Of a stretch of DNA of 64,000 bases, positions 8,356-21,601 are shown piece by piece. The DNA comes from an uncultured Bacteroidota bacterium (GTDB lineage Bacteria > Bacteroidota > Bacteroidia > Bacteroidales > UBA12481), in contig CAINOB010000062.1 of the NCBI GenBank assembly GCA_903851365.1, forward strand, positions 186,001 through 250,000. The letters are read 5' to 3'. The notes under the pieces are model-generated. The model was not told where the DNA came from and ran no database searches. It was given only the letters and a program-made list of their open reading frames with translations. The stretch's first letter is position 1. Each line of letters begins with the position of its first letter. Made by a program: the position numbers and the translations under genes.

Positions 8356-8379
8356 CTATTTACACCAAAATCAAACAAA

Positions 8380-9384
8380 ATGAAAATCAACTTTTTAATT
8401 CTATTTACTCTCTTTCTGACCTGTGCAACCCTGCTGTCGGCACAGGAACTTACAGGAACCGTCAGCTGCCCATCGGCACGCAGCATCAGCATCACCTGCT
8501 TATCAAATGATGCGCTGCATCCGATGCCCGGCTCGCCTTATACCTATTCGGTAAACATTCCTGCCATCAACGGGACTAAAACATTTAAATGGATTGTAAC
8601 GCAGGAGCAATCATTTCTGACTGACGGCATCTTGAACCTCACCAATGCCGAAAGTGCCGGCGGAATGCATATCGCAACGGCAGGGACCGAATTGAACAGC
8701 TCAACCGCAGCCGGAATCGGTGAAACGATCGATATTACCTGGAAATCATTTACTCACGATCCTGCAAAACCTGTGTTTGTTGTCATTTATGTTGAGAATT
8801 CAGATGGTTGCACCACTCAAAATCTAAATGTTTTTCAAATTGAACCTCACCAGGCATTTACCCTCGACATTGCCAATCTCAAGGTGGATGGAACAGTATC
8901 TGCATACGGTGATCAACTCGAAAGTTGCGTCGCCAATATCGCGTCCGCCAAATACGATGCCGCAGCTGCCGGCGGAATAGTTTATGATTACGGTACCGAT
9001 TACATTTTTTATGTGGTGAATGCAGCCGGATTTACCGGGTCGTGGCAACCCGATTTTCAACTCACCGGAATCAGTGGAACACAAACAGCAATTACCGAAT
9101 GGGCTTATGCTGATACCCCGGGGATCTGGAATCAACCGTCAATTGCGGTCAATGCGAAAGCGGTATCAGGTACCGTGGATGCCACGGGTGAATGCATCAT
9201 TGTGAGAGTAACACTGAAACACAATGCCGAGGAGGTTTTAGCGGCCTTGAATATTTCAATGGCTGTGGATGGGACCTCCAATACGCTGCCCGATATCAAC
9301 CACACCGATTGCCTTGCTGATGGATTTTCCAATGATGTTGCCATACATATATTAAAACCGCGGCCAACCCTGCAGAAATTATAA
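8380..9384 (+). CDS. Secreted PKD-like protein, second gene of T9SS-linked cassette
   Basis: 334 residues with signal peptide (MKINFLILFTLFLTCATLLSA). The body is beta-rich with NGTKTFKWIVTQEQ and a cysteine-containing CTTQNLNVF / LESCVANIASAKYD / DATGECIIVRV pattern that may form disulfides outside the cell. It ends in HILKPRPTLQKL, echoing the KPRP tail of the preceding protein, and lacks a T9SS domain of its own. Hydrophobic export signal plus operon position suggests assembly with the CTD-bearing third protein. Function unknown. Confidence 0.68.
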   Translation: MKINFLILFTLFLTCATLLSAQELTGTVSCPSARSISITCLSNDALHPMPGSPYTYSVNIPAINGTKTFKWIVTQEQSFLTDGILNLTNAESAGGMHIATAGTELNSSTAAGIGETIDITWKSFTHDPAKPVFVVIYVENSDGCTTQNLNVFQIEPHQAFTLDIANLKVDGTVSAYGDQLESCVANIASAKYDAAAAGGIVYDYGTDYIFYVVNAAGFTGSWQPDFQLTGISGTQTAITEWAYADTPGIWNQPSIAVNAKAVSGTVDATGECIIVRVTLKHNAEEVLAALNISMAVDGTSNTLPDINHTDCLADGFSNDVAIHILKPRPTLQKL

Positions 9385-9394
9385 CCAGCAAATT

Positions 9395-10018
9395 GTGTTT
9401 CTGCAAAAAATCTCAGTGTTGCTGCTGGCAATCCTGCCGGCAGCCCTGTCCCCGGTGATCTTACTGGCACAGCAGTCGCAGACATATACAGGGGAGATTA
9501 CAGAGCTTCGTATCTTTCCTCTATCGGCTGCATCCTATCAGTGGACGCTGTATTGCGATTCAACGGCAGACTATGCCCTCACTCCGGGAAAACCTGAAAT
9601 CAGAGGCGCCGGATTTGTAAATGAGATCAACGACCAGCCTTCAGTGCAGGTAAAATGGAATAGCCCCGGTAAGTTTTTTTATAAAATTCAGGTAGTTGAT
9701 TCTGATGGATGCAGCAACTTCAAAATTGGCATCATTGAAGTCTTACCTTACCAGATCATTGCCAGAATTTATCCAAATCCTATGAGTGGAAATGATCTCA
9801 ATTTTGAATTAACCCTGCCTAACAGCAACCTGGTAACAATCGATATTTTTTCACCTAACAGACAATTAATCAGCAGAATATTTGAAGAATATCTACCCGG
9901 GGGCATAACTAAAACCATTCATTACGGGAACTATCTGCCTCAAGGAATCTACACTTACAGGATAACCACCCGGAAACAGGTTTGCAGCGGAAGGATTATA
10001 TGCATCAGGGTATACTAA
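9395..10018 (+). CDS. Secreted PKD-like protein with T9SS type A sorting domain
   Basis: 207 residues read from a GTG at 9395, ten bases after the previous stop. A signal peptide (LLLAILPAALSPVILLAQ) is followed by one PKD-like module (AASYQWTLYCDS ... NSPGKFFYKIQVVDSDGCS) and a C-terminal T9SS type A sorting domain of about 85 residues, recognised by ARIYPNPMSGNDLNFEL, then VTIDIFSPNRQLISR and LPQGIYTYRITT. The last gene of the cassette is therefore the one that can be exported through the Por machinery and linked to the surface, and it may carry or anchor the two upstream products. No ATG fits better than the GTG. Confidence 0.72.
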   Translation: MFLQKISVLLLAILPAALSPVILLAQQSQTYTGEITELRIFPLSAASYQWTLYCDSTADYALTPGKPEIRGAGFVNEINDQPSVQVKWNSPGKFFYKIQVVDSDGCSNFKIGIIEVLPYQIIARIYPNPMSGNDLNFELTLPNSNLVTIDIFSPNRQLISRIFEEYLPGGITKTIHYGNYLPQGIYTYRITTRKQVCSGRIICIRVY

Positions 10019-10029
10019 CCCACTCTTCA

Positions 10030-10060
10030 TTTGTCACCCTTCACATCTTAATTATCTTTG
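10030..10060 (+). promoter_or_regulatory. Bacteroidetes-type promoter for the PQQ-like gene
   Basis: TTTG at 10030-10033 and TATCTTTG at 10053-10060 are separated by 19 bases, matching both boxes of the Bacteroidetes primary sigma promoter (TTTG, about 19-21 bases, TAnnTTTG). The ATG of the PQQ-like gene is 22 bases downstream. The spacer begins with TCACCCTTCAC, nearly the same word as the GTCACCCGTCAC repeat at 11424-11451. Confidence 0.75.
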
Positions 10061-10082
10061 AAGCAAACATCAATCATAACCC

Positions 10083-11393
10083 ATGAAGTTCCAAAAATAC
10101 CCTTTCGCGATTGTCCTGATGGTCTTTACTTTTTTATCGACTTTTGCTCAGACCGACATTTCCAGGCAATGGCCTCAATTCCATGGTTACCGGGGTGGCG
10201 GCATACTTGATAAAGCTAATATACCTGCCACCTGGAATTTGCAGACAGGCGAAAACGTTAGATGGAATACCCCAATTCCGGGACTGGCACATTCAAGTCC
10301 GGTTATCTGGGACGATAAGATATTTTTAACCACCGCAGTAAGTTCTGCCAAAGGGGATTCAATAAAAATCGGTCTTTATGGGGATATCGATATGGCCGGT
10401 GATAGCAGTGTCCAGCAGTTTAAGGTATACTGCCTGGATAGAAAGACAGGCAAAATAATATGGGACCGCATCGCCGATGAGGGAGTACCAAAGGAAAGAC
10501 GGCATACAAAATCCACCTATGCAAATCCCACACCGGCTACCGACGGTGTTCACCTGATTGTATCTTTCGGATCGCAGGGACTCTATTGTTATGATTTCAG
10601 CGGCAAACTTCTTTGGAAAAAGGATCTTGGCAATTTAGCCACCGGACCCTATAATGAAACGGGTGTTGAGTGGGGTTATTCGAGTTCACCAGTTATATAT
10701 GATGGTAAGATAATAATTCAGGCAGATCTTCTGAAAAACTCATTCCTTGCCACCTATGATGTTGCCACAGGTGACGAAATCTGGAGGATTAACCGCGAAA
10801 CAATTTCCTCCTGGGGTTCCCCATGTTTGTATACAGATAAAGGGAAAACACTCATAATATTAAACAGTTATCCATTCATTACGGCCAATGATTTTGCAAC
10901 GGGCAAGGAAGTTTGGAAAATCGGAAACGTCGGCGATGCTCCGGCACCTACGGCGGTGGTTGCACATGACTTGATTTATATAAATAGTGCTCACGGAAAA
11001 TATTCGCCGATATTAGCCATCAGGCCAGATTCCACAGTTGCATGGAACTTCGAGAGAGGCGGGGCTTATATGGCCAGTCCGCTCGTTTATGGTGATTATC
11101 TGTACAACATGCAGATCAGCGGTCTGCTAACCTGCATCAACGCACTCACCGGGGAAGTTAAGTACAAGCAAAACCTTGGAAAAGCCTTCTCTGCTTCGGG
11201 TGTGGCTTCCGATGGCAAACTGTTTTTCCCTGCAGAGACAGGCGAAATATTTGTCGTACAAGCCGGTCCGGAATACAAGTTACTGTCAGAGAATAAGATG
11301 GATGACCCTTGCATGGCTACGCCTGCCCTTTCCGGTGGGATGATAATTTTTCGTACACAGCACCGGCTGATAGCAATTGGCAGTAGGCAGTAG
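10083..11393 (+). CDS. Secreted PQQ-like beta-propeller repeat protein
   Basis: 436 residues with signal peptide ending at TFLSTFAQT. Repeated blades carry the W-motif of the PQQ-binding-like (PF13360/PF01011) family: KTGKIIWDR, SGKLLWKKDLG, ATGDEIWRINR, ATGKEVWKIG, ALTGEVKYKQ. The beginning (RQWPQFHGYRGGGILD...NIPATWNLQTGENVRWNTPIPG) is standard for a widespread secreted family with no proven activity; it need not bind PQQ. Its own promoter sits at 10030-10060. The last codons (GSRQ, stop) lie in a GGCAGTA tandem repeat, so the C-terminus has been rewritten by repeat sequence. Confidence 0.85.
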   Translation: MKFQKYPFAIVLMVFTFLSTFAQTDISRQWPQFHGYRGGGILDKANIPATWNLQTGENVRWNTPIPGLAHSSPVIWDDKIFLTTAVSSAKGDSIKIGLYGDIDMAGDSSVQQFKVYCLDRKTGKIIWDRIADEGVPKERRHTKSTYANPTPATDGVHLIVSFGSQGLYCYDFSGKLLWKKDLGNLATGPYNETGVEWGYSSSPVIYDGKIIIQADLLKNSFLATYDVATGDEIWRINRETISSWGSPCLYTDKGKTLIILNSYPFITANDFATGKEVWKIGNVGDAPAPTAVVAHDLIYINSAHGKYSPILAIRPDSTVAWNFERGGAYMASPLVYGDYLYNMQISGLLTCINALTGEVKYKQNLGKAFSASGVASDGKLFFPAETGEIFVVQAGPEYKLLSENKMDDPCMATPALSGGMIIFRTQHRLIAIGSRQ

Positions 11394-11456
11394 GCAAGGT
11401 CTTCCGTCTGCCGATCTTCTTCTTCGTCACCCGTCACTTGTCACCCGTCACGTGTT
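11379..11456. repeat. GGCAGTA and GTCACSC repeat cluster
   Basis: GGCAGTA is repeated twice and partly a third time at 11379-11395. It is followed by a CT-rich block (GATCTTCTTCTTC, 11413-11425) and then GTCACCCGTCAC twice (11426-11437 and 11441-11452). The left end provides the stop codon of the PQQ-like gene. The same words recur inside the large-subunit gene at 19014-19077, and the CTT-block plus GTCAC words recur at 60824-60891 (inverted) and 61326-61410. Confidence 0.75.
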
Positions 11457-11467
11457 TGCTATCTTTG
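11437..11467 (+). promoter_or_regulatory. Repeat-derived promoter for alpha/beta hydrolase gene
   Basis: CTTG (11437-11440), 19 bases, then TATCTTTG (11460-11467), which matches the -7 consensus perfectly. The -33 box is a variant inside the GTCACCC tandem repeat (CACTTGTCACCC). The geometry is the same as at 10030-10060, where a TTGTCACCC word also forms the -33 region. The ATG follows 17 bases after the -7 box. Confidence 0.6.
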
Positions 11468-11484
11468 CCGAAAATCAATGCCCT

Positions 11485-12252
11485 ATGCGAATGCGATTTT
11501 TACTCCTGCTTTTACTGTCTTTGGGGATAGTCTCCTGCAGCTATCTACCTGAGATACAAAACCCTTCGAGTGGTGTAACTGTTTATGACTACAGGGAATA
11601 TATCGAGATCAACCCTACTATTAATAATTATTCAAAAACGGGATTGGTATTTTATCCCGGTGGGTTAGTCGACCCCCATTCGTATATTGAGAATCTTTCG
11701 AAGTTTGCCATTGCCGGTAAGGGTCACAAGGTTATTATTGTGAAAATGCCCGGCAATCTGGCTGTTTTGGATGGCAACAGGGCTGCATGGATTTACAATG
11801 ATTTTCCGGATGTTCAGCAATGGGTAATTGCCGGACATTCATTGGGGGGAGTGATGGCCTGTTCCGTCGTGAAAAAATATCCGGAATTCTTCAAAGGCCT
11901 CGTACTGATGGCGGCCTATCCTCAGAAATCGTCAGATCTGAAAGACTGGACAGGATCTGTTCTTTCGCTTCGCGGACAATTTGATGGATTAGTTGATAGT
12001 TTACAGCTCGCTTCCAGTCAGGGGCTCCTTCCTTCTGCTTTATGGATTCATACTCCCGATGACGTCCCGCTCGACAGTCAACCAAAAACAATCTATTATA
12101 CTATTCCCGGGGGTAATCATGGACAGTTTGGGAACTACGGCCTCCAGAAAGGCGACGGCACAGCCACAATTACCAGGGATGAGCAGGCGGGAATCGTCTC
12201 GTTTATGCTACTCAAGTTTTTCATTACAAACAGCTGGGAATATGACAACTAA
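11485..12252 (+). CDS. Alpha/beta hydrolase lipoprotein
   Basis: 255 residues from the ATG at 11485; the reading frame is open further upstream but that part is repeat and promoter. A lipoprotein signal (LLLLLLSLGIVSCSYL) predicts a lipid-anchored envelope protein. The nucleophile elbow VIAGHSLGGVMAC, the LVLMAAYP strand, GQFDGLVDS (acid region) and IPGGNHGQFGNYG (histidine) give a full catalytic triad of the alpha/beta hydrolase 5 family. Substrate unknown, probably an ester or amide. It overlaps the next gene by 11 bases, so the two are co-transcribed. Confidence 0.85.
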   Translation: MRMRFLLLLLLSLGIVSCSYLPEIQNPSSGVTVYDYREYIEINPTINNYSKTGLVFYPGGLVDPHSYIENLSKFAIAGKGHKVIIVKMPGNLAVLDGNRAAWIYNDFPDVQQWVIAGHSLGGVMACSVVKKYPEFFKGLVLMAAYPQKSSDLKDWTGSVLSLRGQFDGLVDSLQLASSQGLLPSALWIHTPDDVPLDSQPKTIYYTIPGGNHGQFGNYGLQKGDGTATITRDEQAGIVSFMLLKFFITNSWEYDN

Positions 12253-12788: not shown

Positions 12789-14777
12789 ATGATGCCATTA
12801 ATTTTTATTGGTTTGATGGTAATGAGTTTCGGAATTTACGCCATCCGAAAACCCTTTCGCTACAACTACGCTCTGTTTATCCTGATCGCCTCCATTGCGT
12901 TCACCACTATTGCCGTTCTGCTCCCTAACCTCCTCACCTCCTCTGCTCCTCTCTTATTTTCGTCCTCACCTCCTGAGTTTCTCAACATCACCGCTCCTGA
13001 CAGCCTTTCGGCATTTTTTATTCTGATCATCAATTTCACGACGCTTACGGCTTTTCTTTTTGCCGGCGGATATCTTAAATCCTATTACGAAAAACAGACA
13101 TCGCTTCGTTGGTCACTACATCTGTGGGCCTTTATGTGGCTCTATTTCTCGATGATAATGGTTGTAGTCCTTCAAGATGGATTTTCTTTTCTTGTGTCGT
13201 GGGAGCTTATGGCGGTTTCCTCATTTTTACTCGTCATTTTTGAAGCTGATGACAGGAGTGTTTTAAAAACCGGTATCAATTACCTTATTCAGATGCATGT
13301 TGGCCTTTTGTTCCTCCTGGTGGCCTTCCTTATTGCGGGTCAGGCAACCGGACAAACCGGCTTCGACAGTCTGAAAACGTATTTCAGTTCACATTCCAAC
13401 CTGGTAGTTTTCTTTCTGTTCTTTGTTGGATTTGGTATCAAGGCAGGTTTCATCCCGCTGCACACCTGGCTTCCCGAAGCTCACCCTGCAGCACCGTCAC
13501 CTGTTTCCGGGCTCATGTCGGGTGTAATGATCAAGATGGGGATTTACGGAATTTTAAGGGTTGTGTTTGCTATTCAATCTGATTTATTTGTGATTGGCCT
13601 GGTGATTCTGGGTTTTTCGCTATTCTCTGGCATCATGGGCGTTATGATGGCTATCGTACAGCATGATCTGAAGCGGCTTTTAGCTTATCACAGTATCGAA
13701 AACATTGGGATAATCGGTATTGGCATCGGGCTTGGGGTTCTTGGACTGGCGACCGGAAACCAAACGCTGGCCCTCCTCGGTTTCAGTGGCGGGCTGTTAC
13801 ATGTGCTTAATCACAGCCTTTTTAAATCCCTCCTCTTTTTTAATGCCGGATCAGTTTATCTGGCAACGCATACAAGGAATATTGATCAGCTGGGTGGATT
13901 AGCCAAGAAAATGCCATTTACTGCCGCATTTTTCCTGATCGGATCGCTGGCAATCTGTGGATTACCCCCATTCAATGGATTTATTTCGGAATTCCTGATC
14001 TATTTGGGGATGTTTAAGAGCTTTCCTGAATCAACCTTGTATTTCAGCATACTCTTATTGGTCAGCCTGATCGGGTTAACACTCATTGGCGGATTGGCTA
14101 TTTTCTGCTTCACCAAAGCTTTTGGAATCGTATTTCTGGGCCAGGCACGGAGCACTCAGGCTGAGGGTGCTCACGAAGTCAGCAGAAACATGCTAATTCC
14201 TTCTCTGCTGGCAGCTGCCGCCATTCTTGCCATTGGTCTTGGATCGGCATTGTTTGTCAGACCTGTGATGAATATTACCTCAAATCTGTCCGGCATAAGT
14301 CTGCCCGGACTTTTTACCGACGACCTGCTAAAAACGCTTGGCCGGATCAGCCTTACCGGCGGATTATTCATTGGCCTGGTAGTGATTATCGCCGCATGGC
14401 GTTATTTCCACCTTCAGAAAAAGGTGGTCACCGCTGGTCCTACCTGGGGTTGCGGCTACACTGCCGGTGATGAAAAACAGCAATATACCGCCAGCTCCTG
14501 GGCCGATAATTTTAGTTCCCTGGCCAATCCTGTCCTGGGAACAAAAAAGCAAGAAATACCTATCCGGGAAACCGACCTCTTTCCGAAAAAAAGAACTTTC
14601 GCAACCCATCCCCGAGATCTCTTCAAATCAGGAATGATTGAAAAACCGGTCGACTGGCTGCTGAATATTTTTAAGAAAATTGCTTTCATGCAAACAGGCC
14701 AGATCCAGCATTACATATTATATGCGTTTTTGTTTATGCTTGTAATACTGTTACTTACAATGTTTAAAATTTTGTAA
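12789..14777 (+). CDS. Hydrogenase-4-like proton-pumping subunit B (HyfB/NuoL-like)
   Basis: 662 residues, about 15 membrane helices. The proton-translocating antiporter-like core carries the buried Glu in WELMAVSSFLLV and the signature KAGFIPLHTWLPEAHPAAPS with its lysine and histidine, followed by LLAYHSIENIGII and HVLNHSLFKSLLFF. A soluble loop near residue 550 and a last helix at the C-terminus match HyfB length (about 670). It is the first of six tightly packed genes (gaps of 3, 5, 1, then overlap, then 8 bases) that make a group-4 hydrogenase-type membrane complex. All ion-pathway residues that I can see are intact, in contrast to the redox subunits. Confidence 0.9.
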   Translation: MMPLIFIGLMVMSFGIYAIRKPFRYNYALFILIASIAFTTIAVLLPNLLTSSAPLLFSSSPPEFLNITAPDSLSAFFILIINFTTLTAFLFAGGYLKSYYEKQTSLRWSLHLWAFMWLYFSMIMVVVLQDGFSFLVSWELMAVSSFLLVIFEADDRSVLKTGINYLIQMHVGLLFLLVAFLIAGQATGQTGFDSLKTYFSSHSNLVVFFLFFVGFGIKAGFIPLHTWLPEAHPAAPSPVSGLMSGVMIKMGIYGILRVVFAIQSDLFVIGLVILGFSLFSGIMGVMMAIVQHDLKRLLAYHSIENIGIIGIGIGLGVLGLATGNQTLALLGFSGGLLHVLNHSLFKSLLFFNAGSVYLATHTRNIDQLGGLAKKMPFTAAFFLIGSLAICGLPPFNGFISEFLIYLGMFKSFPESTLYFSILLLVSLIGLTLIGGLAIFCFTKAFGIVFLGQARSTQAEGAHEVSRNMLIPSLLAAAAILAIGLGSALFVRPVMNITSNLSGISLPGLFTDDLLKTLGRISLTGGLFIGLVVIIAAWRYFHLQKKVVTAGPTWGCGYTAGDEKQQYTASSWADNFSSLANPVLGTKKQEIPIRETDLFPKKRTFATHPRDLFKSGMIEKPVDWLLNIFKKIAFMQTGQIQHYILYAFLFMLVILLLTMFKIL

Positions 14778-14780
14778 CCG

Positions 14781-15695
14781 ATGGCCGGAATTCCATTAAT
14801 ACTCTTGGCAGCATTTTTCTTTCCCGGCATCATCATCCGGACAAAAAGCATTTTAAGCGGCCGCAAAGGTCCCGGCATTATACAGCCCATGCGTGATATC
14901 AAGGTTTTATTCAGCAAGGGCAGCGTTTACAGCACGACCACCGGGTGGGTATTCAAACTTGCACCGGTGGTTGGTTTAGCCTCCATGTTGTCGGTTCTGG
15001 CTGTGATTCCCTTTGCCAACATGCCGGCGTTGATTCCCTTCCAGGCCGATTTCGTTTATTTCTCCTATATGCTTGCCCTGGGAAAATTCTTTATGATTAT
15101 CGGGGCTCTCGATACAGGCAGCAGTTTCGAAGGCATGGGCGCCAACCGCGAGGCCCTTTTTTCCATGTTGGTTGAACCTGCCTTTCTTGTTTTGATGGGC
15201 ACCTTTGCCATGCTCACCGGCTATACTTCATTTTCGGAAATATTTACGGCATTCCATGTTTCTGAAAACCCGATTATCACTGTTTTTGGACTGATTGGAT
15301 GTTATCTCCTGGTGCAGATTGCCATGATCGAAAACTCGAGAATGCCGATAGATGATCCCAAAACTCATCTCGAATTAACGATGGTTCATGAAGTGATGAT
15401 CCTGGATTACAGTGGCTTCGATAAGGCACTGATTCACATTGCCACCGCTATTAAATTTGCGGTTTACGGATCGCTAATCTGCAGTTCGGTTGTCCCGGCT
15501 GCCTGGCACCCTGGATTTCAAATCTTACTTTTCCTGAGCATTCAGGCCGCTTTTGCCATAATCGTTGGTATTGGCGAATCGTTCCGGGCCAGGAATAAAA
15601 TGCAAAAAAATGCCCAATTCATTCTCACCCTGACGGCTGTTGCCATGCTGGCTTTCCTGGTGGTGTTGATCGTGACTGAAAAATTGATTATCTGA
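14781..15695 (+). CDS. HyfC/NuoH-like membrane subunit
   Basis: 304 residues with about eight membrane helices. FMIIGALDTGSSFEGMGANREALFS and MIENSRMPIDDPKTHLELTMVHE are the conserved acidic loops of the respiratory complex I subunit 1 family, which in complex I shape the quinone-proximal coupling site; the acidic residues are retained. Length fits HyfC (about 310). It couples the soluble redox arm to the ion-pumping subunits. It starts three bases after hyfB stops. Confidence 0.9.
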   Translation: MAGIPLILLAAFFFPGIIIRTKSILSGRKGPGIIQPMRDIKVLFSKGSVYSTTTGWVFKLAPVVGLASMLSVLAVIPFANMPALIPFQADFVYFSYMLALGKFFMIIGALDTGSSFEGMGANREALFSMLVEPAFLVLMGTFAMLTGYTSFSEIFTAFHVSENPIITVFGLIGCYLLVQIAMIENSRMPIDDPKTHLELTMVHEVMILDYSGFDKALIHIATAIKFAVYGSLICSSVVPAAWHPGFQILLFLSIQAAFAIIVGIGESFRARNKMQKNAQFILTLTAVAMLAFLVVLIVTEKLII

Positions 15696-15700
15696 TTAAT

Positions 15701-16330
15701 ATGTTCTATTTGCTGATCGTACTTTTTGCAGGAACCTTGGTGTATATCAGTATAGCCGAGCGATTCCGGTCGTATGCAAAACTTATTGCCTTTCAGGGCT
15801 TCCTGCTGTTTGCCATCGCCCTGATTGAGCTCAAGACCATTAACCTGGCCAACCTGATTTTCGTATCGGCAGAAACCCTGATATTCAAGGCTATTATTGT
15901 GCCCTATTTCCTGTTCAGGATCATTAATCAGACAAAAGTTTACAAGGTGCATCCGAAGGCTTTCCCGGCATTCTATTCATTGCTTTTTACCATGGCCGGT
16001 CTGTTTATCAGTATCATCCTTTCGAATGTTCTCAAAAATCCAAGCCTTGATGCAGTATTTATGACCATTGCCCTATTTACACTCTATACCGGTGTTTTAC
16101 TGGTCATTACACACAAAAGAATTTTTTCGCATATGATCGGCTTTCTGGTGGTGGAAAATGCGGTATTCTTCTTTTCGCTGGCGATAGGAAGCGAAATGCC
16201 TATGCTGATAAACATCGGTATCTTACTCGATATCTTCGTTAGTGTGCTGATAATTGGTGTGCTCATGAATCATATCGGTAATCAGTTCAGCGATCTTGAA
16301 TCCGATAACCTGACCAGCTTAAAACATTAG
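15701..16330 (+). CDS. HyfE-like membrane subunit
   Basis: 209 residues with six or so membrane helices (for example LIVLFAGTLVYISIAERF, LLFTMAGLFISIILSNVL). Position between HyfC- and HyfF-like genes, length near that of HyfE (about 216) and the patterns GFLVVENAVFFFSLAIG and LINIGILLDIFVSVLIIGV identify it as the hydrogenase-4 component E, which corresponds to NuoK-like/MrpC-like segments in related complexes. It starts five bases after the previous stop. Confidence 0.85.
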   Translation: MFYLLIVLFAGTLVYISIAERFRSYAKLIAFQGFLLFAIALIELKTINLANLIFVSAETLIFKAIIVPYFLFRIINQTKVYKVHPKAFPAFYSLLFTMAGLFISIILSNVLKNPSLDAVFMTIALFTLYTGVLLVITHKRIFSHMIGFLVVENAVFFFSLAIGSEMPMLINIGILLDIFVSVLIIGVLMNHIGNQFSDLESDNLTSLKH

Positions 16331-16331
16331 G

Positions 16332-17759
16332 ATGATAGCCATTTACTTCATATCAGCCTTTCTGATCGCCATGACGATGCTGGCTATTCGGCGCCTGCAA
16401 CTAACACGCTGGCTCATGGTCCTGTTTATCCTGATACAATGGACCTTTAACGGATATGTCCTGATGCACTCCGGCGAGACCGAACTAGGCTATTTTGCCT
16501 TTGATCCGGCGGGAATACTGTTCCTCGGGTTACTCACGCTGATATCTTCTGCAGTGGTTATCCAGGGGTTTCCATACTTTATCGATCCTTTAAACAAACG
16601 GTTCGGCTATTATTATGCGGCGCTGGTCGGACTCATCGCTTCCATAACCGGTGCCTATCTGGCAAATGACATTACACTGGTCTGGATTCTAGTTGAGGCC
16701 ACCACCCTGACCGCTTCCGTCCTGATTTACAGCGAGCGCACCCTTCATGCGCTGGAAGCAACCTGGAAGTACATTTTTATTTGTTCAACTGGTATAGCCC
16801 TGGCTTACATGGGAATACTATTTGCCAGTCTCTCAATGAAAGGCACCGGAATGCATGGGTTATCGTTTGATGGCCTGGCTTCTGTTGCCAGTAAACTCGA
16901 CCCGGTTTATCTGAAGATCGCCTTTATTTTTGTCCTCACAGGATACAGCACCAAAATGGAGCTTTTTCCGATGCATACCGTTGGAATCGATGCCAACTCT
17001 GTGGCGCTTCCTCCGGTTGGAGCACTGATTTCCACCGGGTTAGTCAATCTGGGCTTTCTTTCGATTTTCAGGATGTATAAAGCGTTATCAGGCTCCCCGA
17101 TCTTTGGCTGGATGAACAAAGTGCTTATCCTTGCCGGTGTATTATCGGTACTCGTAGCTGCCGGTTATATGCTGAAAGCCAAGCATACGAAGAGGATGCT
17201 GGCTTACTCCACCCTCGAAAACATGGGACTGGTTGCCATTGCCATCGGGATTGGCGGAATCGGGTATTATGCTGCTTTTCTGCTGCTCGTTTTACATGCA
17301 TTGACCAAATCAAGCTTATTCTTTCAAGTGGGCCAGATGGGCCGGGTGCTCGGTACTTACAAGCTCGACGATAGTGGTCTTTACTTAAAATATTTCCCGA
17401 CCGGCGCCATTGCACTGCTGATTGGAATGCTGGTTATTCTCGCAATCCCTCCTTCCGGATTGTTTGTCAGTGAATTTCTCATACTCAAAGCGCTGGTTGC
17501 AGGAAAAAGTTGGTATGTGCTGGTGCTGGTCCTGATACTACTGTGTTTTGTGATCTATGCCATGAGTACCCGTGTGCTTCATCTTCTGTTTTCGCAGCCG
17601 CGTGAAAATGCTGCAACCTATACCCAGGGAACAGCAGGCAGATGGGAAACAATCAGTCAGTTTGTTTTTCTGCTTATCGTGGTTGGAGCTTGTTTTTATC
17701 AACCTCCATTTCTGAAAGATATTATTAATCAGATAATTACCGGATTACCGAATTTGTGA
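16332..17759 (+). CDS. HyfF-like proton-pumping antiporter subunit
   Basis: 475 residues, about 13 helices. The antiporter core shows TLVWILVEATTLTASVLI (buried Glu) and TGYSTKMELFPMHTVGIDAN, with the Lys that lines the ion channel in NuoN/HyfF proteins, then MLAYSTLENMGLVAI. This second antiporter-like subunit with HyfB gives the complex at least two putative ion pathways. Its TGA overlaps the ATG of the next gene by one base (tgATG), a sign of translational coupling. Confidence 0.88.
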   Translation: MIAIYFISAFLIAMTMLAIRRLQLTRWLMVLFILIQWTFNGYVLMHSGETELGYFAFDPAGILFLGLLTLISSAVVIQGFPYFIDPLNKRFGYYYAALVGLIASITGAYLANDITLVWILVEATTLTASVLIYSERTLHALEATWKYIFICSTGIALAYMGILFASLSMKGTGMHGLSFDGLASVASKLDPVYLKIAFIFVLTGYSTKMELFPMHTVGIDANSVALPPVGALISTGLVNLGFLSIFRMYKALSGSPIFGWMNKVLILAGVLSVLVAAGYMLKAKHTKRMLAYSTLENMGLVAIAIGIGGIGYYAAFLLLVLHALTKSSLFFQVGQMGRVLGTYKLDDSGLYLKYFPTGAIALLIGMLVILAIPPSGLFVSEFLILKALVAGKSWYVLVLVLILLCFVIYAMSTRVLHLLFSQPRENAATYTQGTAGRWETISQFVFLLIVVGACFYQPPFLKDIINQIITGLPNL

Positions 17760-19294
17760 TGCCCATGCAAGATTTTTCCTATATCGAATTATCACCCGGA
17801 GCGGCTCCGATCGGTCTCAAAACCATTCCGGTTTTGAATTATCCGGATTTTGCAGAGCAGATCGCAGGATTGATGAAAGCTGAAACTGTTCATTGCGTCC
17901 TCTATTATGCCTTTCCTTTTAATAATGGGTTAAAATTCATTGCCATACTCGCTGTTGACGCTACCGGTAAGTTTTTAGTTTTCTCCCATGAAACTACCGC
18001 TGGGGTTACTGATCTGGAATCCATCACACCTCAGATTCCGGCCCTTCATCTTTTTGAGCGAGAAATACACGAAAATTTTGGGATCGGTTTTCAACATCAT
18101 CCCTGGCTGAAACCGGTCCGTTTTAGTGCCGATCGGTATCAGAAAGATCTGACAATGAATGATTACCCATTTTATCGCATCGACAGTGAAGAGTTGCATG
18201 AGGTGGGTGTCGGTCCAATTCATGCCGGGGTTATTGAGCCGGGTCATTTCCGGTTTATCTGCAACGGCGAAAAGGTTTTGCACCTTGAAATCCAGCTTGG
18301 CTACCAGCACAGGGGTATAGAAAAACTATTTTTAAATGCAGGATCAACGCTCAGGCGAGCAGTCCTTTCGGAAAATATTGCCGGTGATACTACTGTTGGT
18401 CATGCTGTTACGCATGCTCAACTGATCGAATCACTTGCCGGAATTACGATTAACGAAAATCTTCAAAAAGAACGGGCCATTGCTTTGGAACTCGAACGCA
18501 TCGCGGTTCATATTGGAGATACCGCTGCCTTGTGCACCGATGTTGCCTATCAGTTCGGACAGGTGGTTAATGAGGCCCTCCGAACCACTATCATTAATAC
18601 CTCGCAATTATGGTGCGGCAACCGTTTCGGTAAAGGGTTGATCCGCCCCGGTGGAACGAACTATCCACTGACCGTCCCGGTTATTGAATCGATGCTGAAA
18701 ACGCTCGATAACACCGGTATGCGTTACAGGGATATTACTGACAACATTTTTACGGCACCATCAATTCTGATTCGTTTTGATGGCATTGGCACGGTAACCC
18801 GCAGCCAGGCGCTAAGTATCGGCGCAGTAGGTATGGCCGCGCGGATGGCAGGAATACCAAGGGATATTCGGGCAACACACCCATCCGGATATTATGCAGG
18901 CATAAAATATGAGCCCGAAATCCAGGACACCGGCGATGTCCTTGCTCGCGCCCTGATACGCAACCTCGAAGCACGAAAGTCCATCGAAATGGTTAAGGAG
19001 TGGGCTGCACAGCTGTCACCCGTCACCCGTCACCCGTCACCAATCGGCAGTGGGGTGTCGGCAGTAGGCAGTAAGCCATCGAGCTTTGCGATGGCAGTTA
19101 ACGAAGGGTGGCGCGGCGAGATTGCCCATGCGGCTGTGACCGGGCCTGATGGAGAGTTGGTACATTATAAAATCAAGGATCCCTCATTCCACAATTGGAT
19201 AGCCCTGGCATTGGCGGTCAGGAATCAGGAGATTTCTGATTTCCCGATATGCAACAAGAGTTTTAATCTTTCCTATTGCGGTCACGATTTATAA
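17759..19294 (+). CDS. NuoC-NuoD/HyfG-like large subunit lacking NiFe ligands
   Basis: 511 residues from the ATG at 17759 (a GTG lies one codon earlier). Residues 1-110 are NuoC-like; the remainder is the hydrogenase large-subunit/NuoD fold (LEIQLGYQHRGIEKLF, ALELERIAVHIGD, GIPRDIRATHPSGYY). In NiFe enzymes two CxxC pairs hold the metal. Here the first pair region reads ENIAGDTTVGHA (Ala208 and Thr211 in the Cys places) and the C-terminal pair region reads SFNLSYCGHDL (Ser505 and Gly508 by my alignment). The protein therefore should not bind NiFe, as in the energy-converting hydrogenase-related (Ehr) group. Residues about 419-439 are encoded by repeat DNA (19014-19077). No cleavable C-terminal extension is present. 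Confidence 0.88.
   Translation: MPMQDFSYIELSPGAAPIGLKTIPVLNYPDFAEQIAGLMKAETVHCVLYYAFPFNNGLKFIAILAVDATGKFLVFSHETTAGVTDLESITPQIPALHLFEREIHENFGIGFQHHPWLKPVRFSADRYQKDLTMNDYPFYRIDSEELHEVGVGPIHAGVIEPGHFRFICNGEKVLHLEIQLGYQHRGIEKLFLNAGSTLRRAVLSENIAGDTTVGHAVTHAQLIESLAGITINENLQKERAIALELERIAVHIGDTAALCTDVAYQFGQVVNEALRTTIINTSQLWCGNRFGKGLIRPGGTNYPLTVPVIESMLKTLDNTGMRYRDITDNIFTAPSILIRFDGIGTVTRSQALSIGAVGMAARMAGIPRDIRATHPSGYYAGIKYEPEIQDTGDVLARALIRNLEARKSIEMVKEWAAQLSPVTRHPSPIGSGVSAVGSKPSSFAMAVNEGWRGEIAHAAVTGPDGELVHYKIKDPSFHNWIALALAVRNQEISDFPICNKSFNLSYCGHDL
19014..19077. repeat. GTCACCC / GGCAGTA repeat inside the large-subunit gene
   Basis: Four GTCACC words in tandem (19015-19041, period 8) and then GGCAGT words with GGCAGTAGGCAGTA at 19060-19073. 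The insert keeps the reading frame and encodes a Ser/Pro/Gly-rich loop (LSPVTRHPSPIGSGVSAVGS). The two words are the same as in the cluster at 11379-11456, but in the opposite order along the strand. Confidence 0.8.
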
Positions 19295-19302
19295 AACAGC
19301 TC

Positions 19303-20058
19303 ATGTTCAGATCAATAAAAATACTTCGGCAGCACGGCATTCAATACGTTCCCAACCTGCGTACCGCTGAGCTGACATCACTTTTCCGGGGCCGCCCGGT
19401 CCTCTCGGGAGAAGTTTCTGCAGAGCTGGCAACCAATCTGGCTAAAATGTGTCCATCGGGGGCTATTCAACAAGCTCCATTCAGTATCGATATGGGGAAA
19501 TGCATTTTTTGCCGCGAATGCGAGTTTGCCGCACCGGATAATATCAGGTTTACCAACGATTATCACATTGCCACCAATAATCGTGATAATTTGATAATCA
19601 AAGAGAATCATGATAATCCAATAGTGCTGAATCCTGATCTGGTTCGAAAAGAGATTCGCACCCTGTTTCGCCGTTCGCTGAAGCTTCGTCAGGTTTCGGC
19701 GGGTGGAGATGCAAGCAATGAGATGGAACTAAATGCTGCAGGAAATGTCAATTTTGATATGGGCCGCTACGGAATTGAATTTGTCGCCTCGCCCCGGCAT
19801 GCCGATGGTGTAGTAATTACTGGTCCCATCACCGAAAACATGGCTGAGGCACTGCAGATCTGTTTCGACGCAACCCCAAAGCCCAGTCTGGTTATCCTTT
19901 GTGGTACTGATGCCATCTCAGGCGGACTCTTCCAGGAAAGCAACGCCCTTAACCGCAACTTTCTCAGTCGCCATCCCATTGATCTTTATGTCCCGGGCAA
20001 TCCAGTGCATCCGCTCACGTTCATTAATGGGGTGCTGGATCTGATTGGAAGGGAATAA
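19303..20058 (+). CDS. Fused ferredoxin-NuoB/HyfI-like subunit with substituted cluster ligands
   Basis: 251 residues from the ATG at 19303, nine bases past the preceding stop (an ATG at 19276 overlaps it). The N-terminal ferredoxin-like part has Cys50 (MCPSGAI) and Cys67, Cys70, Cys73 (CIFCREC); the first three Cys of motif 1 and the last of motif 2 are missing. Those four Cys are exactly one set for a single [4Fe-4S] cluster in the two-cluster ferredoxin fold. The C-terminal NuoB-like part (from about 130) keeps the fold motifs (ITGPITENM, SGGLF, LYVPGNP), but the four proximal-cluster cysteines are Asp136, Asn139, Asp203 and Asn233. The usual separate HycF-like and HycG-like proteins are thus fused and partly stripped of cofactors. 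Confidence 0.82.
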   Translation: MFRSIKILRQHGIQYVPNLRTAELTSLFRGRPVLSGEVSAELATNLAKMCPSGAIQQAPFSIDMGKCIFCRECEFAAPDNIRFTNDYHIATNNRDNLIIKENHDNPIVLNPDLVRKEIRTLFRRSLKLRQVSAGGDASNEMELNAAGNVNFDMGRYGIEFVASPRHADGVVITGPITENMAEALQICFDATPKPSLVILCGTDAISGGLFQESNALNRNFLSRHPIDLYVPGNPVHPLTFINGVLDLIGRE

Positions 20059-20116: not shown

Positions 20117-20785
20117 ATGAAACAAAGATTCCTATTTGCATCGCTTGGTATCCTATTTTTTAACCTGGCTTTTGGACAAACTGGAAAAATCCCTGACCCA
20201 ACTCAGAAGAAAGAATTAGTATCTATTCTGGACACCATTCACCAGGAAGACCAAAAATACCGGGAAGGGTTAGACACAATTTACAAGAAATACGGCTGGG
20301 ATTCAAAAGAGACAAAGGATGTGTGGAAAATAATAAATGAGAAGGATTCAATTAATCTGATCAAAGTTGAAAAAATACTTGCTGAATATGGATGGCTCGG
20401 AGCTGATATTGTCGGAAAACAGGGTAATAAAACATTATTCCTGGTAATACAACATGCTAATTTACAAACCCAGATAAAGTATCTACCTATGTTTAGAGAA
20501 GCTGTCAAAAACGGAAAAGCAGAAGGAGGTTCTCTCGCAACAATGGAGGATAGAGTTTTGATAAGTCAAGGAGAAAAACAAATTTATGGAAGCCAACTTG
20601 CAGGGGATTATAAAACAAAACTGTATGTTTTATCACCCATGATTGACCCGGATTATGTTGATAAGCGCAGAGCTGAAGTTGGACTTGAACCCATTGCAGA
20701 ATACCTGAAAATTTTTGATGTAACCTGGGATGTCGAGAAGTTTAAAAAGCGAATGGAAGAATATGATGCAAAAAAGAAAAAATAG
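20117..20785 (+). CDS. Exported DUF6624-like protein
   Basis: 222 residues with a signal peptide (MKQRFLFASLGILFFNLAFG). The region YGWLGADIVGKQGNKTLFLV followed by IQHANLQTQIKYLPMFREAV and MEDRVLISQGEKQIYGSQ matches the DUF6624 family (YGWPG..vG..g...aFLivQHAd...Q...lp.l, then DRvl...g..Q.YGTQ), as I recall it. The C-terminus is Lys-rich. Function unknown. Its stop is three bases before the KilA-N gene. The stretch 20117-22137 is visibly richer in A/T than the hydrogenase-like operon before it. Confidence 0.75.
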   Translation: MKQRFLFASLGILFFNLAFGQTGKIPDPTQKKELVSILDTIHQEDQKYREGLDTIYKKYGWDSKETKDVWKIINEKDSINLIKVEKILAEYGWLGADIVGKQGNKTLFLVIQHANLQTQIKYLPMFREAVKNGKAEGGSLATMEDRVLISQGEKQIYGSQLAGDYKTKLYVLSPMIDPDYVDKRRAEVGLEPIAEYLKIFDVTWDVEKFKKRMEEYDAKKKK

Positions 20786-20788
20786 CAA

Positions 20789-21601
20789 ATGGCAAAAATT
20801 AAAGTTGAAAATACCGAAATTACCATCTTGTCTATCGAAGAGAGAGATTACATCTCACTTACTGATATGGCTAATGCCAAAGAGAGCGAAAGCCGGGCTG
20901 CCGATATTATAAAGAATTGGCTAAGGACAAGATATGCAATTGAATTTCTAAGTGTTTGGGAGCAGATTAATAATCCCAATTTTAAAGTGGTGGAATCTGA
21001 CCACTTTAAAATGCAAGCCGGTTTGCCAAATTTTGTTTTAAGTGCTTCTGAGTGGATTGCAAAAACCAATGCCAAAGGAATAATCGTGAGGAAAGGAAAA
21101 TATGGGGGAACTTATGCGCACAAAGATATAGCTTTTGAATTTGGCTCTGCCATTAGTGTAACTTTTAAATTGTACCTGATTACTGAATTCCAACGACTCA
21201 AAGAAGATGAGCAGAAACAACTCGGTTGGACAGCCAAGCGCGAACTATCAAAAATCAATTACCATATCCATACAGATGCAATTAAAAACAACCTCCTTCC
21301 TGATGAATTAACCGCTGCCCAAACATCCATTATTTACGCCAGCGAGGCAGATGTGCTGAATGTGGCTTTGTTTGGATTAACTGCCCGACAATGGCGCGAA
21401 GCTAATCCCGGCCTAAAAGGAAACATACGCGATTATGCCGGCATTAACCAGCTGATTTGTCTTGCCAATATGGAAGACCTCAATTCCGTATTTATTCAAG
21501 AAAAAATGCACCAAAACGAACGGCTTGTAAAACTAAATCAAATAGCCATTCAGCAGATGCTGGTTTTGCAGGAAGTGGAAAATAGAAAACTGCTGAAATA
21601 A
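20789..21601 (+). CDS. KilA-N domain protein
   Basis: 270 residues, no signal peptide. Residues about 15-140 form a KilA-N DNA-binding domain: YISLTDMANAK, IIKNWLRTRYAIEFLSVWEQ, ASEWIAKTNAKGIIVRKGKYGGTYAHKDIAFEFG. The C-terminal half (HIHTDAIKNNLLPDEL, QWREANPGLKGNIRDYA) is common to stand-alone chromosomal KilA-N proteins. KilA-N proteins are best known from phages (antirepressor-type) and large DNA viruses, so this gene probably reflects horizontal transfer. No integrase or other phage gene is adjacent. It may regulate the flanking genes, but nothing in the sequence proves it. Confidence 0.85.
   Translation: MAKIKVENTEITILSIEERDYISLTDMANAKESESRAADIIKNWLRTRYAIEFLSVWEQINNPNFKVVESDHFKMQAGLPNFVLSASEWIAKTNAKGIIVRKGKYGGTYAHKDIAFEFGSAISVTFKLYLITEFQRLKEDEQKQLGWTAKRELSKINYHIHTDAIKNNLLPDELTAAQTSIIYASEADVLNVALFGLTARQWREANPGLKGNIRDYAGINQLICLANMEDLNSVFIQEKMHQNERLVKLNQIAIQQMLVLQEVENRKLLK

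Follow-up and report, generated by a model that had tools for sequence, protein, structure and literature searches.

Results

A six-gene operon for a group-4 hydrogenase-like complex

The stretch of DNA analysed here (the window; 64,000 nucleotides, positions 186,001 to 250,000 of contig CAINOB010000062.1, assembly GCA_903851365.1) comes from an uncultured Bacteroidota bacterium and carries, at 12789-20058 on the forward strand, six co-directional open reading frames (ORFs) for a complex related to the group-4 [NiFe] hydrogenases. An initial annotation had placed the genes at these coordinates and had read them as an energy-converting hydrogenase-related (Ehr) complex that has lost both the NiFe site and the proximal iron-sulfur (FeS) cluster. 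The frames form a tight operon, with intergenic gaps of 1-8 nt, or an overlap of 1 nt, given ATG starts, and an Ehr-type gene set (group-4-type large, small, NuoH-like and antiporter-like subunits) is present in this one operon:

12789..14777, +, HyfB/HycC-like antiporter subunit (NCBIfam hydrogenase 4 subunit B, E 1.8e-162, 542 bits, below the cut-off of 667; HycC, 1.4e-61)
14781..15695, +, HyfC/HycD/NuoH-like subunit, with the E-channel (Pfam NADHdh, 5.3e-28; HycD, 6.7e-27)
15701..16330, +, HyfE-like membrane subunit (NCBIfam PRK11492 hydrogenase 4 membrane subunit, 3.4e-14, below cut-off)
16332..17759, +, HyfF-like antiporter subunit (NCBIfam hydrogenase 4 subunit F, 9.3e-63, below cut-off)
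17756 (GTG) or 17759 (ATG)..19294, +, HycE/NuoCD-like large subunit (Pfam Complex1_49kDa, 1.8e-29, and 30kDa, 4.4e-6; HycE, 1.4e-35)
19303 (ATG)..20058, +, fused ferredoxin and NuoB/HycG-like small subunit (Oxidored_q6, 5.7e-18; MbhJ, 1.8e-19)

Among the matches listed, none of the six proteins reached a curated NCBIfam cut-off. The C-terminal part of the HyfB-like subunit aligns to the extension of HycC that resembles NuoA (ND3). Residues of the large subunit are counted from 17756 and those of the small subunit from the ATG at 19303, a longer frame being possible from a TTG at 19276. With this numbering, the former and remaining cofactor sites (N2 denoting the proximal cluster) are as follows:

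18371..18403, +, former NiFe cysteine pair 1, E206-N-I-A209-G-D211-T212-T-V-G-H216 (HycE alignment, first CxxC region)
19265..19291, +, former NiFe cysteine pair 2 at the extreme C-terminus, N504-L-S506-Y-C-G509-H-D-L (HycE alignment)
19450..19521, +, single remaining predicted [4Fe-4S] site, C50 with C67, C70 and C73 (motif)
19708..19719, +, Asp136 and Asn139 replacing N2 cysteines 1 and 2 (MbhJ alignment)
19909..19911, +, Asp203 replacing N2 cysteine 3 (MbhJ alignment)
19999..20001, +, Asn233 replacing N2 cysteine 4 (MbhJ alignment)

Loss of the N2 site and of one ferredoxin cluster from the small subunit

Alignment to MbhJ places D136, N139, D203 and N233 at the four cysteine positions of the proximal cluster, in agreement with the initial annotation. 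The small subunit has only six cysteines (C50, C67, C70, C73, C187 and C200), and none of them falls at a lost ligand position. Substitute ligands were rejected, since the leftover C187 and C200 are not fully conserved (Cys in 25 of 30 and in 20 of 106 relatives, respectively) and neither stands at a lost ligand position; misalignment was also rejected, as the profile alignment, two MAFFT alignments and the comparisons with MbhJ and HycE are concordant. The predicted fold (mean predicted local distance difference test, pLDDT, 88) matches HycG and MbhJ, with a root-mean-square deviation of 2.0 Å over 129 columns to the latter.

Relatives were collected from a neighbour set of 119 genomes near the window (its own included), of which 34, from 28 families, gave a full-type match (E < 1e-60), with residues read in 30 of the 34 and fragments in G023 and G028 counted as absent; from a phylum set of 395 genomes, where the 17 matches at E 1e-25 to a homologue on plasmid 3 of Variovorax sp. 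PBL-E5 (L033) were 15 Cys-keeping proteins and 2 without the N2 ligands (N2-less), one of them that of the window itself; and from named database contigs, whose best 80 loci were taken and are all N2-less, as expected from the query, 77 of them titled Bacteroidota. Before classes were counted, own-genome duplicates (L001, L051) and complex I matches (L002, L003) were dropped, and identical N2-less rows were merged, from 111 to 106 distinct small subunits. The Cys-type class comprises 14 fused small subunits (L033, L038-L050); the distant Ehr loci L034-L037, L053 and L054 were kept out of the class counts and are reported apart as Cys-keeping. Large subunits that were missing or shorter than 380 residues were dropped, leaving 92 distinct N2-less and 14 Cys-type sequences.

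Position 136 is Asp in 103 of the 106 distinct N2-less small subunits (Ala, Gly and Glu once each), position 203 is Asp in 96, Glu in 9 and His in 1, and position 233 is Asn in 96, Ala in 8, His in 1 and Ser in 1. At position 139 the residue is Cys in 73, Ala in 9, Val in 8, Asn in 4 and another in 12; as this position is still Cys in so many, and as the 4 Asn139 rows all come from the window's genus, Asn139 is local to that genus. The regular Cys-to-Asp/Asn pattern described in the initial annotation is thus conserved at 136, 203 and 233 and not at 139. The four N2 cysteines occur together in 0/106, and no N2-less relative has Cys at more than one of these positions. All four are kept in each of the 21 other small subunits of Ehr type that were read, namely the 14 Cys-type fused proteins and 7 further ones (L034-L037, L053, L054 and a second locus on L096), and a NiFe-less ending of the large subunit was confirmed for 20 of these 21, the stretch of L054 being without a large subunit. 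We note that an Alistipes/Rikenellaceae-type subgroup (L087, L100, L101, L105, L122, L129, L133, L134) has D-V-E-A, D-I-E-A or D-V-D-A at the N2 positions, and that L106, titled Alistipes, has D-T-D-N.

Nine positions of the small subunit separate N2-less from Cys-type proteins (111 versus 14 rows, not deduplicated). Eight of them (43, 46, 74, 136, 138, 202, 203 and 233) lie at or beside cluster ligands and the ninth, 115, lies elsewhere; the pattern fits an N2 site refilled by polar side chains, with S138 in 100 and T202 in 76 of the 106 N2-less proteins. E140, E142 and H236 are found in 106/106 N2-less and in 14/14, 14/14 and 13/14 Cys-type proteins, respectively.

The ferredoxin half of the protein had been overlooked in the initial annotation; one of its clusters is kept and the second (N6a type) is lost. 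The remaining site, which we take to be of the N6b type and to adjoin N2 from the familiar 2[4Fe-4S] pattern, has C50, C67, C70 and C73 invariant in 120/120 distinct fused small subunits (106 N2-less and 14 Cys-type), and the motif of the second ferredoxin cluster is absent from the window protein. The Variovorax homologue keeps this second motif in full and all N2 cysteines, so that one FeS cluster is predicted for the complex of the window and three for its full relative.

A conserved pocket without NiFe ligands

In the large subunit, the cysteines of the first CxxC pair correspond to A209 and T212 in HMMER alignments to HycE, MbhL and Nqo4. At the C-terminus S506 corresponds to the first cysteine of the last HycE pair and G509 to the second, the latter when the alignment is extended by 3 residues past its printed end. 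The four cysteines that bind NiFe in group-4 [NiFe] hydrogenases are hence missing from this protein, as had been claimed. A single Cys occurs at position 209 or 212 in one N2-less row each (L057, L069), and no row has a Cys pair. The neighbouring residues are strongly kept: D211 occurs in 92/92 N2-less and 14/14 Cys-type large subunits, H216 in 92/92 and 13/14, and S506, Y507, G509 and D511 in 92/92 and 14/14. The Ehr signature of these sites, a GD that follows the first position of the pair and a C-terminal NKSxxxxYxGxD, is shared with Variovorax, Paraburkholderia and Rhizobium plasmid proteins. The best match of the predicted fold (mean pLDDT 86) is HycE (TM score 0.84/0.81).

Over 44 columns that we chose around the former NiFe site as representing the pocket, mean conservation is 0.911 in N2-less and 0.937 in Cys-type proteins (other columns, 0.654 versus 0.668). 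The pocket is therefore equally conserved with and without N2, which argues that its role does not depend on N2. The Nqo4 quinone-site tyrosine, which we take to be Tyr87, aligns to Gly210 of the window protein.

The membrane arm and selection on the operon

The membrane subunits were said to keep the charged residues of ion pumping, and the residues named here are invariant in all 50 to 58 N2-less operons read, the exceptions being the lysine of transmembrane helix 8 (TM8) in HyfF and two loop glutamates of HycD. Thus E139, K218, K249, H338, H342, K346 and E401 of HyfB are found in 50/50 N2-less and 10/10 Cys-type operons, E124, E132, E184, E198 and E204 of HyfC in 52/52 and 10/10, E58, K63, H144, E152 and D177 of HyfE in 55/55 N2-less operons, and E122, K208, H322, K326 and E381 of HyfF in 58/58. 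HyfC E132 and E198 correspond to HycD E138 and E203; according to a formate hydrogenlyase study, HycD E138 and the E199/E201/E203 group are required for H2 production (PMC9474812).

When the window was compared gene by gene with two congeners, the ratio of non-synonymous to synonymous substitution rates (dN/dS) was 0.011-0.093 in 11 of the 12 cases (subunit E gave no value against G004); these ratios are rough, with dS near saturation. The N2-less operon is, on this sequence evidence, under purifying selection, and together with the invariant ion-path residues this bears out the earlier suggestion of a kept function rather than decay.

Distribution and origin of the N2-less branch

As the complete set of N2 cysteines is present in every one of the 21 other Ehr-type proteins, N2 loss appears as the derived state of a mostly Bacteroidota branch of Ehr. 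In a careful tree of 39 large subunits, from which L033 and L096b were omitted as long branches, the N2-less rows form one group with support of 77/63 (80% of 200 bootstrap trees); the large-subunit tree holds none of the small-subunit trait columns. A clade of the N2-less rows minus L120 was not rejected in this tree (p 0.168). N2 was probably lost once. A rather improbable alternative is repeated loss of N2 through parallel Cys-to-Asp/Asn changes: the support of 77/63 leaves room for this, the Cys-type L047 branches next to the N2-less rows, and a quick tree with 2 changes left single versus multiple loss open. Against this, the Asp136 and Asp/Glu203 pair is common to nearly all members, and the careful tree has a branch that separates the N2-less rows from the others.

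One locus from a Cytophagales metagenome-assembled genome (L120, 1926-2717) has D/D/H/S at the N2 ligand positions with both ferredoxin clusters intact and looks like an intermediate, whereas three Bacteroidota loci (L048-L050) show the reverse order of loss, with N2 kept and the outer ferredoxin cluster gone. From these patterns the outer ferredoxin cluster was lost at least 2 times.

Contig titles of other phyla were found for four loci, L096 (Candidatus Brocadiaceae), L125 (Spirochaetia), L127 (Phycisphaerae) and the Cys-type Variovorax plasmid L033. The N2-less loci L125 (630 kb contig) and L127 (4.6 kb) may reflect transfer or binning error. The 17.7-kb Candidatus Brocadiaceae contig L096, which may be misbinned, carries large- and small-subunit genes of both an N2-keeping and an N2-less Ehr, 5.4 kb apart (892-2986 and 8358-10777). 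Cultured hosts of the N2-less complex include Chryseolinea serpens, Arcticibacter species and Alistipes montrealensis.

Genome context and candidate partners

No hyp maturation genes had been seen in the window, and for HypD, used as the marker of maturation, the absence extends to the whole genome (99% complete), where PF01924 gave no match in a search whose control was positive in 4/14 known genomes. Neither MnhB (PF04039) nor RnfC_N gave a match in this genome, the latter though present in 101/119 genomes searched. Two further nuoB loci of the genome (G000:C67 = L138 and G000:C10 = L139) encode products that pass NCBIfam NuoB cut-offs and fit complex I. Among the 119 genomes, and uncorrected for relatedness, HypD occurs in 7/34 genomes with and 30/85 without a full-type match (Fisher p 0.13), MnhB in 6/34 and 20/85 (p 0.63) and RnfC_N in 26/34 (one below the family cut-off) and 75/85 (p 0.15).

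When ORFs of at least 80 aa around 81 loci (window included) were clustered, no partner gene beyond the core was found in more than 7; more distant partners could be missed, as 8.5 kb upstream and 5 kb downstream were reached in only 43 of the 80 fetched loci. In the window, genes for a DUF6624 protein and a KilA-N domain protein directly adjoin the operon downstream (20117-21601) and an alpha/beta hydrolase is encoded upstream (11377-12252); none of these neighbours belongs to a family common to at least 4/81 loci.

Discussion

The complex resembles Ehr in its group-4 subunit set, in a large subunit without the NiFe CxxC motifs and in having no known reaction; several papers describe Ehr as NiFe-less and of unknown or unproven function (PMC6349859, PMC7304191, PMC10284858, PMC10432482, PMC12342949, PMC4378227, PMC7894505). 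It differs in that the branch of the window has lost N2 and one ferredoxin cluster. The assignment to Ehr made in the initial annotation is therefore supported by architecture and NiFe loss, whereas the loss of N2 is no general Ehr trait, and the complex is best described as a derived, mostly Bacteroidota branch of Ehr. We found no report of lost N2 ligands in Ehr in the open-access full text searched, which does not cover the defining papers (Coppi 2005; Marreiros 2013), so that the loss may already have been published. Among the closest systems are fused-subunit Ehr. The Variovorax complex and those of other Bacteroidota (L038-L050) share the ferredoxin and NuoB fusion, and L033 has the same six genes in the same order and a small subunit 50% identical to that of the window; unlike the window, these fused proteins keep N2 in 14/14 and both ferredoxin clusters in 11/14. 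We note that the Variovorax plasmid carries two Ehr operons ~3.4 kb apart (L033, 3920-11204, fused; L037, 70-7254, unfused), both of which keep N2.

Other known systems share parts of the complex. As in E. coli formate hydrogenlyase and hydrogenase 4, there is a HyfBCEF-like membrane arm and a large subunit with the HycE fold (TM score 0.84) that keeps the equivalents of HycE E193, H284 and R478; unlike them, the window complex lacks NiFe and N2, HycE D529 is replaced by Asn504, HycC Leu208 corresponds to K218 in HyfB, and no formate dehydrogenase or HycB-like gene was found among the six operon and four flanking proteins scanned. Respiratory complex I has a homologous core with the NuoB and NuoD folds, whereas the window complex is without N2 and the quinone-site Tyr, and none of the NADH module (NuoE/F/G) was found among the same ten proteins. 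The antiporter-like subunits recall Mrp antiporters and a possible non-redox ion transport, yet the complex, in a genome without MnhB, retains one FeS cluster site besides subunits of NuoB, NuoCD and NuoH type.

Proposed ion movement without electron delivery to the pocket

We propose, tentatively and at a little under even chances, that this derived Ehr complex translocates H+ or Na+ with no delivery of electrons to the pocket at each turnover. NiFe (absent from Ehr by definition), N2 and the outer ferredoxin cluster have been lost, and the membrane arm and a remodelled Ehr pocket are retained; the sequences show these losses and how well they are conserved, together with purifying selection and the invariant ion-path residues. 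With N2 gone, electrons from the remaining cluster would not reach the pocket at a useful rate; as the electron path to the pocket would thus be cut, an ion translocator without electron delivery appears the likeliest of the readings. D136, S138, T202, D203 and N233 could form a polar, possibly protonatable plug at the former cluster site, the surviving [4Fe-4S] cluster could serve as a redox sensor or gate (or be structural), and the large-subunit pocket would answer a proton or a small ligand and be coupled through the E-channel to the two antiporter-like subunits. A more specific version, which we consider unlikely, is that proton uptake and release by the Asp136/Asp203 pair, or ligand binding in the pocket, is by itself enough to drive or gate the E-channel and antiporters, with the FeS cluster acting as a redox sensor. 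As to rates, a standard tunnelling formula gives 10^2.8 per s at 17 Å and 10^-0.2 per s at 22 Å (zero driving force, 0.7 eV). For formate hydrogenlyase, one study gives inter-cluster distances below 14 Å and ~10^2 per s at 17 Å (PMC9474812).

Several observations weigh against this proposal. The gap from the remaining cluster to the pocket without N2 should be ~20 Å or more, a deduced value. The remaining cluster is invariant in 120/120, although its neighbour has gone on at least two occasions; so strict a conservation goes beyond what a purely structural cluster would require and suggests that electrons still matter. The two carboxylates together with E140, E142 and H236 could hold a metal ion, that is, another cofactor. 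In the membrane arm, HyfF has Asn239 in place of the TM8 lysine (Asn in 57 and Cys in 1 of 58), and HyfC has K194 and H196 where HycD has E199 and E201 (Lys/Arg in 48/52 and His in 52/52, respectively). Co-occurrence with HypD, MnhB or RnfC across the 119 genomes gave no lead.

Alternative explanations

Because the remaining cluster is invariant, the main rival is a redox-driven pump whose substrate site has moved: ferredoxin would reduce that cluster, and a quinone or other small-molecule acceptor would bind in the vacated N2/pocket cavity, near enough to it for direct transfer. Once the outer cluster is gone, a soluble donor could gain access to the inner one, and both the highly conserved pocket and the intact ion-path residues named above agree with a working pump. 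We regard it as somewhat unlikely, as the N2 site gained polar side chains (S138 in 100/106, T202 in 76/106, D203) and was not opened, Gly210 stands at the quinone-site position (presumably Tyr87 of Nqo4), and no partner gene recurs in more than 7/81 loci. Another possibility is that the former N2 site holds a new cofactor without sulfur, such as mononuclear Fe, Mn or a different metal, with D136, D/E203, in many relatives N233, and E140/E142/H236 as ligands; this cofactor would relay electrons or carry out chemistry. Asp136 in 103/106, Asp/Glu203 in 105/106 and the invariance of E140, E142 and H236 would suit such a site. The last three are also conserved in Cys-type proteins and so are not new ligands, N233 is Ala in 8/106, and the N2-less small subunits have no class-specific His or Cys; this makes a new metal centre quite improbable.

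That the complex is after all a usual group-4 hydrogenase or a usual Ehr, with an ordinary N2 or NiFe centre held by other ligands, could be argued from position 139, still Cys in 73/106. It is very improbable given that any N2-less relative has at most one N2-ligand Cys, the window protein none, with no spare conserved Cys and no HypD in the genome. We give even less credence to a decaying hydrogenase remnant. Cofactor ligands have been lost repeatedly, and G023, of the same order, holds only small-subunit fragments (C386, C24), one with an internal stop, that possibly represent a decayed copy or a split contig. The operon of the window is intact, however, full-type matches occur in 34/119 genomes from 28 families, and an apparent stop in G001 belongs to the large-subunit gene, which ends shortly before the small-subunit ATG; we rejected decay on the dN/dS values of 0.011-0.093 and the invariant ion-path residues.

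Implications for Ehr and complex I

With the poorly understood Ehr group divided into branches that keep the cluster and branches that lack it, a shared name should not be taken to imply a shared function. In complex I it is an open question how ion channels far from N2 are driven by electron transfer close to it. The branch described here has lost N2 and the catalytic site in evolution, yet its ion path and pocket remain under strong selection in many bacteria. If electrons are still transferred in this complex, their route must differ from those described in the literature examined. If ions are instead moved without electrons, the branch would be a natural separation of the two halves of the mechanism and a system in which they can be tested, and should the drive itself be non-electronic, it would provide a natural, selected, electron-transfer-free complex I core.

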